Source of the DNA: Kitasatospora sp. NA04385
GTDB taxonomy: Bacteria; Actinomycetota; Actinomycetes; Streptomycetales; Streptomycetaceae
Direction of reading: 5' to 3'
Assembly (NCBI RefSeq): GCF_013364235.1
Contig: NZ_CP054919.1
Location: 2,565,951 to 2,629,950 of the forward strand
Length of the DNA stretch: 64,000 bases
Both the position numbers and the translations under genes were made by a program. Under the pieces are notes generated by a model. The model did no database searches, was not told the DNA's origin, and saw only the letters and a program-made list of their open reading frames with translations. Every line of letters begins with the position of its first letter. The stretch's first letter is position 1. Of this stretch, positions 1,153 through 4,707 are shown piece after piece.

Positions 1153-2010
1153 CTACCGGCCGACCTCGGCCGCGGCGCGGTCGAGCGCCAGCGGGTCGGT
1201 CACCGTGCCGGTCTGCTCGTCGAGCGGCCCCTGCGCCAGCCTGGTCACCTCTGCGGGGACCGGCGGCGCGAGGTCGGCCGTCGAACGGAGACCGGACAAT
1301 ACGTCGTCGGGTCGTACGGCGGGTGTGGCGTGTCGTACTACCAGGCGCAGTATCGCACAGGGAGCACCCGTACGAACATCGTCCGCACCTTCCGTGGCTG
1401 TGTCGTCACCGATCCCGACCAGCGGGGAGCCCTCGGGGAGGAGTTCCACCGCGGCGACGGCGGCGCGCGCGTCGAAGGTGCGCAGGCCGTTCTTGGTCAT
1501 CCGCTGGACCTCGACCGTCTCGGCGGCCAGGAACGCGGCGGCGGCCTTCTCGGCCTCGACCGGCTCCACGCCGGGCAGGCGCAGCAGCCACTCGGAGGCC
1601 TCCAGGCGCTCCACGAAGTTGCCCGTGGCGACCTCGACGGCCTCGGTGATGTCTAGGCCGGGCGGCAGCGACTCGTCCAGTTGGCGGCGCAGCGCCTCCG
1701 GGTCGCGGGGCTCGGCGAGGCCGATCTCCAGGTACTCGGCCTCGCTCGCGGTGCCGGTCGGGGCGGCGTTGGCGTAGGAGACCTTGGGGTGCGGGGTGAA
1801 GCCCGCGGAGTAGGCCATCGGGACGGCCGAGCGGCGGAGCGCGCGCTCGAACGCCCGCTGGAAGTCCCGGTGGCTGGTGAAGCGCAGACGGCCGCGCTTG
1901 GTGTAGCGGAGACGGATGCGCTGCACCGTCGGCGCGGGCGGCGGACCGTCGGGCGTGCGGCGTGCCAGGGGGCTCAGTCCTTCGTCAGTTGTCCCCGTCC
2001 GGCCTCGCAC
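1153..2010 (-). CDS. TIGR03936 / DUF2344 family radical-SAM-associated protein
   Basis: A DUF2344 (TIGR03936) protein of up to 285 aa. The recognisable domain begins near residue 29 with VQRIRLRYTKRGRLRFTSHRD and continues through FERALRRS and AGFTPHPKVSYANAAP, which are typical of the family. In many bacteria this domain is fused to the C-terminus of the TIGR03960-type radical SAM protein, whose gene here ends at 2779. The two presumably act together, but the reaction is unknown. The annotated GTG start at 2008-2010 has a poor ribosome binding site. The GTG at 1924-1926, just before the conserved domain, is an alternative and would give about 257 aa. The C-terminus (ALDRAAAEVGR) is variable in the family. 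Confidence 0.85.
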   Translation of the reverse strand: MRGRTGTTDEGLSPLARRTPDGPPPAPTVQRIRLRYTKRGRLRFTSHRDFQRAFERALRRSAVPMAYSAGFTPHPKVSYANAAPTGTASEAEYLEIGLAEPRDPEALRRQLDESLPPGLDITEAVEVATGNFVERLEASEWLLRLPGVEPVEAEKAAAAFLAAETVEVQRMTKNGLRTFDARAAVAAVELLPEGSPLVGIGDDTATEGADDVRTGAPCAILRLVVRHATPAVRPDDVLSGLRSTADLAPPVPAEVTRLAQGPLDEQTGTVTDPLALDRAAAEVGR

Positions 2011-2059
2011 CGCGTGCGGCTCCGGCCGGACCTTGTCCCCACCAAGGGTACGCGGTGCG

Positions 2060-2683
2060 TCAGCCGAACAGCGCCCGCCGTACCTCCCCGGCGACCCGGC
2101 GGATCTCCGCCTTGACGGGCCACCAGACGCTGCGGCGCACCCAGCGGCAGGGGGCGACCACGGTGAAGCGCCAGATCCGGCCGCCGATCCGCCAGGCCCA
2201 GCGGAACGCCAGCCACAGCGCGCGCAGCACCGGGAACAGCACCGGCCGCCACAGGCCGTGGTGGAACGCCTTGCCGATCGGCACCAGCACCCAGTGCCAC
2301 AGCGCCCGCAGCGGCACCGCGACCAGGTAGTACCCCAGCCAGGCGATCACCTTGCCGAAGCCGGCGGCGACGGCGACCATCCCGTTCCAGGCCGGTTCCA
2401 GCACGTAGTTCCAGAGGAACCCGAGCACCGGTTCCAGCACGTACCGCCACAGCAGCCGCAGCGGTTCGACCACCAGCCACTTCAGCAGCGGCCGCAGCAG
2501 GTACCGCCACAGCATCCGCAGCGGCCACAGCAGCACCTTGTCGACCACCCAGCCGAGGCCGCGCGCGACCAGCACCACCAGCTCCCACAGCAGCCGCAGC
2601 GGCACCACGACCGCCACCACCACCGGCCGCACCACCGCGACCAGACAGCCCTCGCCCTGCCCCTGCCGCCCCTGCTGAGCCAC
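2060..2683 (-). CDS. Trp/Leu/Pro-repeat hydrophobic protein of unknown function
   Basis: The frame is open from GTG 2701, but the best start is GTG 2681-2683, preceded by GGGGGAG at a spacing of 5 nt, giving 207 aa. After a short polar N-terminus (AQQGRQGQGEG) almost the whole protein is a repeated hydrophobic unit of about 13-20 residues: RPLRMLWRYLLRPLLKWL, EPLRLLWRYVLEPVLGFLW, VPLRALWHWVLVPIG and FPVLRALWLAF. Each unit has a Pro, a Leu-Trp pair and one or two Arg, so it looks like repeated amphipathic or interfacial helices rather than ordinary membrane segments. It lies between the DUF2344 gene and its radical SAM partner in the same orientation. I recognise no family. It may be membrane-associated. 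Confidence 0.72.
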   Translation of the reverse strand: MAQQGRQGQGEGCLVAVVRPVVVAVVVPLRLLWELVVLVARGLGWVVDKVLLWPLRMLWRYLLRPLLKWLVVEPLRLLWRYVLEPVLGFLWNYVLEPAWNGMVAVAAGFGKVIAWLGYYLVAVPLRALWHWVLVPIGKAFHHGLWRPVLFPVLRALWLAFRWAWRIGGRIWRFTVVAPCRWVRRSVWWPVKAEIRRVAGEVRRALFG

Positions 2684-2730
2684 CGTCACTCCCCCGTCCA
2701 CCGATCAGCAGATGGTAATGCCCGCGCAAA

Positions 2731-2762
2731 GGGCCCCCGCCACGGGGTCGTGGCGGGGGCCC
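2731..2762 (-). terminator. Hairpin terminator after the radical SAM gene
   Basis: A perfect 13-bp stem (GGGCCCCCGCCAC pairing with GTGGCGGGGGCCC) encloses a 6-nt loop. It sits 17 bp downstream of the radical SAM gene stop on the minus strand and ends that transcript before the Trp-rich gene. Confidence 0.85.
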
Positions 2763-2778
2763 TGCGGGTGAGGCCGCG

Positions 2779-4707
<1,929 letters not shown>

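Follow-up and report, generated by a model that had tools for sequence, protein, structure and literature searches.

The 64,000-nucleotide stretch of Kitasatospora sp. NA04385 analysed here (the window) carries, between the genes for a TIGR03960 B12-binding radical SAM protein and a DUF2344/TIGR03936 protein, an open frame (2060-2683, minus strand, GTG start, TGA stop) whose 207-amino-acid product consists of 9.2% tryptophan, 6.3% proline, and 34% valine plus leucine. All three genes are on the same strand, and the frame is close to the rodA and pbp2 genes. What kind of protein does this gene encode, and is its position between two enzyme genes of any consequence for its function?

A real gene of an undescribed family

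The 207-aa frame is a real gene: GC content by codon position (76, 46 and 97%; third position 96.6%) resembles that of the genes on either side, about 20 examined genomes have a relative in this slot, and a Shine-Dalgarno-like GGGGGAG precedes the start (Table 1). The GTG at 2683 aligns with the ATG starts of relatives. Two other frames, one antisense (1916-2992; codon-position GC 80, 57, 81) and one sense (1974-2729; 92, 73, 51), were rejected on codon-position GC. The genome carries one copy of the gene. In pairwise comparisons with Kitasatospora orthologues most dN/dS values lie at 0.3-0.97 (1.4 for one pair): the gene is therefore under weak to moderate constraint and is evolving fast. Since many close relatives lack it, it is not essential.

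Searches of Pfam, NCBIfam, PADLOC and PDB sequences gave no meaningful match for the protein or for diverse relatives; nor did Foldseek find a match in the PDB for the model of the 207-aa protein, and PHROGs, searched with 12 members, returned nothing meaningful beyond weak matches to one of them. In the literature SCO2605, which perhaps occupies the corresponding slot in S. coelicolor (because SCO2606 is the radical-SAM gene), is mentioned solely as the boundary of a figure. The family is thus uncatalogued, undescribed and fast-changing, and belongs to Streptomyces-type bacteria. Named relatives come from Kitasatospora (L027-L031) and Nocardia inohanensis (L032). A Kitasatospora profile finds the gene in 85 of 200 Streptomycetaceae genomes and a broader profile in 105 of 148 genomes of the order; with the latter profile 11 of 396 genomes across the phylum are positive, ten of them in Streptomycetaceae and one in another family, taken to be that of Nocardia. 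A further family, which we infer to be Frankia-like, has clear relatives in 12 of 35 genomes when queried with one of its own members. Among the Streptomyces-type genomes listed, which include 20 of those without the gene, many that lack it are of about 5-7 Mb and those with it mostly of 7-10 Mb.

Relatives range from 197 to about 500 amino acids, and among 74 distinct frames core lengths reach 493 residues; the full short form is about 197, the few shorter frames being taken as cut by locus ends. Recent internal duplications of 49 residues (L090) and 38 residues (L100) were found. That every duplication adds complete turns of the helix was considered and dropped: offsets of 38 and 49 fit, while 12, 44, 58 and 66 do not.

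Table 1. Features of the repeat gene and its surroundings (coordinates are positions in the window).
Feature	Position	Strand	Basis or remark
LW/RP repeat protein gene	2060..2683	-	codon-position GC 76/46/97; homologues with aligned start
GGGGGAG, Shine-Dalgarno-like	2689..2695	-	5 nt ahead of GTG2683
P-x10-P cassette, residues 54-65, PLRMLWRYLLRP	2489..2524	-	spacing analysis; DNA repeat
P-x10-P cassette, residues 74-85, PLRLLWRYVLEP	2429..2464	-	spacing analysis; DNA repeat
P-x10-P cassette, residues 124-135, PLRALWHWVLVP	2279..2314	-	spacing analysis; DNA repeat
P-x10-P cassette, residues 178-189, PCRWVRRSVWWP	2117..2152	-	spacing analysis
N-terminal conserved block, residues 12-34 (GCL...VVVPLRLLWE)	2582..2650	-	invariant alignment columns
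C-terminal block, residues 160-207, most conserved part	2063..2206	-	alignment
Upstream neighbour, TIGR03960 B12-binding radical SAM protein	2779..4707	-	context, outside feature
Downstream neighbour, DUF2344/TIGR03936 protein	1153..2010	-	context, outside feature
G+C-rich strong hairpin, terminator-like, without T run	2730..2763	-	between radical-SAM and repeat gene

Genomic position and the neighbouring enzymes

The initial annotation took the gene to split a pair that is fused in other bacteria. The position is as described: in Streptomycetaceae, every copy of the repeat gene for which both the radical-SAM and the DUF2344 gene are in view is flanked by them. This position is probably without meaning. 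Several Kitasatospora genomes without the gene have a clean gap of 111-287 bp with no remnant, different genes fill the slot in other genomes, and relatives of the Nocardia type and the L097 type are single genes in unrelated neighbourhoods. The slot is thus a permissive one, and the evidence lends no support to a functional link with the enzymes. As to the fusion itself, its sole basis here is the name of the NCBIfam model, rSAM_fuse_unch, and no paper was found that treats TIGR03960 together with TIGR03936. Across the loci L106, L109, L088, L092-L094, L099 and L100 the slot holds varied accessory genes and resembles a small insertion hotspot.

Could the 207-aa protein nonetheless be part of a radical-SAM/DUF2344 system, for example as a membrane tether? 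Constancy of slot and strand in Streptomycetaceae speaks for this, as does an arrangement found in several Streptomyces-type genomes, where the frame extends across the conserved DUF2344 leader to a stop codon 4-6 nt short of the DUF2344 start, so that translational coupling is possible there. Yet many Kitasatospora carry the enzyme pair without the repeat gene, Nocardia-type genomes carry the repeat gene with no such pair nearby, and the slot also houses other genes. The sequences of pair and repeat protein are unrelated, and their rates of change differ widely: identity to Streptomyces-type genomes is 27-38% for the 207-aa protein, as against 67-76% for DUF2344 and 87-90% for the radical-SAM protein. 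Moreover, the strong hairpin between the repeat gene and the radical-SAM gene (a 96-nt region folding at -58.8 kcal/mol, z -3.6) suggests that the two are transcribed separately. Membership of the enzyme system is very unlikely.

The DUF2344 leader has features of its own. An element like CGTA(A/C)CCTTGG precedes DUF2344 at about 2038-2050 (minus strand) and in L028, L031 and L092-L096; in Streptomycetaceae it is conserved with or without the repeat-gene frame running through it, and is possibly a promoter or regulatory site. A CTG codon at 1966-1968 (minus strand) is conserved in all 40 of 40 distinct DUF2344 upstream sequences: in most of them GAAGGA-, TAAGGA- or GAGGAG-like bases lie about ten positions upstream, in many an in-frame stop lies a few codons ahead, and between this CTG and the next GTG variability peaks at third positions. 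On these sequence patterns the true start of DUF2344/TIGR03936 is probably the CTG at 1968.

Organization of the repeats

About eight units covering nearly 90% of the chain, with regular spacing of both Trp and Pro, had been proposed in the initial annotation. A repeat is present; its extent is smaller, with four strict P-x10-P cassettes and six relaxed ones (PxxxLW-type) that together account for less than half of the chain. Proline spacing is regular (four P-P distances of 11 observed against 0.7 expected, p=0.003), as is that of Arg/Lys (10 pairs at lag 11 against 3.5 expected, p=0.0006), but Trp shows no period of 11 (0 pairs). Absence of periodicity from homologues had been named as grounds for discarding the repeat; among 27 family members it is in fact stronger, with P-P distances of 11, 27 and 38 found 165, 94 and 115 times (22, 21 and 20 expected, respectively). 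Read from these spacings, the repeat is best described as a P-x10-P cassette inside a 38-residue module, P-11-P-27-P. The cassette consensus is approximately LVVxP-L-R-W-L-W-R-Y-V-L-x-P-V-G-R-A-L, and copies are recognizable in the DNA at 2274-2314, 2424-2464 and 2484-2524. The tail TLGSSTTALTKD of Streptomyces relatives was rejected as a motif: it results from the frame reading across the DUF2344 leader, whose conservation extends to L091, in which the repeat-gene frame stops earlier.

In tape measure proteins, as described, 11-residue units vary in number, aromatic residues act as markers, and the periods are a mixture of the 11-11-18 kind (PMC3271669); the family shares with the phage tail tape measure a varying unit number, 11-residue spacing and aromatics. 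One relative from Streptomycetaceae (L095) also has weak PHROGs matches, to an endolysin (E 0.0003) and to a tape measure profile (E 0.001). Even so, it is extremely improbable that the protein serves, in the manner of a tape measure, as the ruler for the tail of a phage or for a contractile injection system: the profile match is confined to this 1 of 12 members, the markers here are Pro and Arg, with Trp lacking the 11-residue period, the composition is of membrane type, and the gene context is different (rodA, pbp2, radical SAM). A tblastn search of phage and plasmid records, with 50,697 phage records, found no match.

A single charged stripe

Across 27 members, distances between consecutive Arg/Lys residues of 3-4 (363), 7-8 (263), 11-12 (198), 15 (28) and 19 (14) are common, while those of 2 (3 against 124 expected), 5-6 (37 against 151), 9-10 (14 against 84) and 13-14 (10 against 47) are rare. 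The distances are quantised, and thus point to one charged stripe along a near-continuous alpha-helix. In the 207-aa protein the 27 positive residues fall on one face (mean resultant 0.70 at 93.5 degrees per residue, p=0.0005), and the stripe spans about 95% of the protein (residues 12-207). Prolines are opposite the charged face (p=0.0015), and Trp is mainly on or beside it. Hydrophobicity, too, has a period of 93.5 degrees (p=0.002), a signal lacking from RodA, the radical-SAM protein and DUF2344. The stripe is kept in most relatives tested, over up to 478 residues and mostly at p<0.01, and is marginal, short of significance, in L092 (p=0.065). Its period, 3.75-3.87 residues per turn, exceeds both 3.6 and 11/3: a straight ideal helix would therefore not hold the stripe in line, and unwinding at prolines or a superhelix may possibly explain the long period.

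AlphaFold2 models are of low confidence (pTM 0.26-0.27, 6-7 sequences) and favour helix over strand, but say little more. For the 207-aa protein a helix is predicted at residues 13-176 (pLDDT 65), and for the Nocardia relative at 16-90, 97-170 and 185-310 (pLDDT 69). The earlier suggestion of a beta-solenoid fits neither the charge period nor these two models, both of which are all-helical and without strand.

Probable association with the membrane

If the protein is such a helix, where would it reside? Its core is 65% hydrophobic and, with 27 positive and 7 negative charges, has a net charge of +20. Charge-free runs are of at most 14 residues, with clusters at 7, 10-11 and 14, whereas in RodA, encoded nearby, the ten longest such runs have 17-43 residues; together with the placing of charges on one face, this supports the initial view of interfacial amphipathic repeats, unlike ordinary transmembrane helices. 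Short charge-free runs, one-faced charge and net positive charge point to a helix that would lie in one leaflet and not cross the membrane. That the 207-aa protein is a monotopic protein of the membrane surface, with a coating or stiffening role, is the reading to which we give a little better than an even chance.

The first alternative is a polytopic transmembrane protein, with short, Arg-interrupted, proline-kinked helices that either span the membrane or make re-entrant hairpins; it may be an oligomer whose Arg stripe faces a channel or a contact between proteins. On the octanol scale five to six non-overlapping 19-residue windows favour insertion, so that short transmembrane or re-entrant pieces are possible; prolines away from the charged face would bend the helix; and in some relatives charge-free runs extend to 22-33 residues. 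Nevertheless, charge-free hydrophobic segments of about 18 residues or more, typical of polytopic proteins, are absent from the 207-aa protein, whose longest is 14. Arg and Lys are locked to one face over the full length, which is unexpected for crossing helices joined by loops, and the predicted model has no breaks where loops would be. We regard a polytopic arrangement as unlikely.

Under the preferred, monotopic reading, residues from about 12 to 207 would form one very long amphipathic alpha-helix punctuated by prolines. A wide Val/Leu/Trp face would be buried in one leaflet, with prolines opposite the charges, and the single Arg/Lys stripe, with Trp on and beside it, would be turned towards the cytosol and the phosphates of the lipids. 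Growth would proceed by the 38-residue module, of about ten turns: gain or loss of modules would change the length of the helix, and with it the membrane area covered and the avidity, with no need for a precise fold. In filamentous actinobacteria such a protein may serve to coat or stiffen membranes, either internal ones or those of the cytoplasmic side.

Discussion

Perilipin 4, which coats lipid droplets, is a giant repetitive amphipathic helix of many repeats, and is weakly hydrophobic (PMC5889406). The 207-aa family shares with perilipin 4, alpha-synuclein and the exchangeable apolipoproteins a very long amphipathic helix (here predicted), 11-related repeats and variable repeat number, and the 207-aa protein has in addition one polar face along its whole length and would have the proline kinks of the apolipoproteins. 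There are also differences. The 207-aa protein is far more hydrophobic, is Arg/Trp-rich, and has almost no acidic residues, Thr or Ser; and in place of 11-residue repeats at 3.67 residues per turn the family has, although P-P distances of 11 are enriched, a module of 38 residues (11+27) and a period of 3.75-3.87. Pfam and PDB searches revealed no homology to proteins of this kind: the resemblance to the giant helices of the perilipin 4 type would be one of likeness and not of membership.

Streptomyces- and Nocardia-type bacteria store triacylglycerol, and the family occurs in both. A coat of lipid droplets or storage granules, in which the long helix would lie on the monolayer of a triacylglycerol droplet as the many-repeat helix of perilipin 4 does (PMC5889406), can thus be envisaged. 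The strong hydrophobicity and Trp-richness of the 207-aa protein (mean 0.81) nevertheless differ from the weak hydrophobicity of perilipin 4 (PMC5889406), no lipid-storage gene is found among the immediate neighbours in the window, and the family is very rare in the other actinobacteria sampled. A droplet coat we consider decidedly improbable.

A broader and rather speculative extension of the monotopic reading, to which we give a low probability, is that the family represents a class of bacterial proteins, giant modular helices that coat membranes, their length tuned by duplication of units, and that these shape or stabilise internal membranes such as cross-membranes in filamentous actinobacteria. 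The family is uncatalogued, occurs in a large fraction of the sampled Streptomyces-type genomes, and bears an unusually clean Arg stripe that can be read from sequence; its natural length variants, together with its natural absences, make the relation between length and function directly testable. If these proteins are indeed membrane coats, then bacteria would possess in them a counterpart, in kind, of perilipin 4 and the apolipoproteins, and the family would offer a handle on the organisation of membranes in hyphae.
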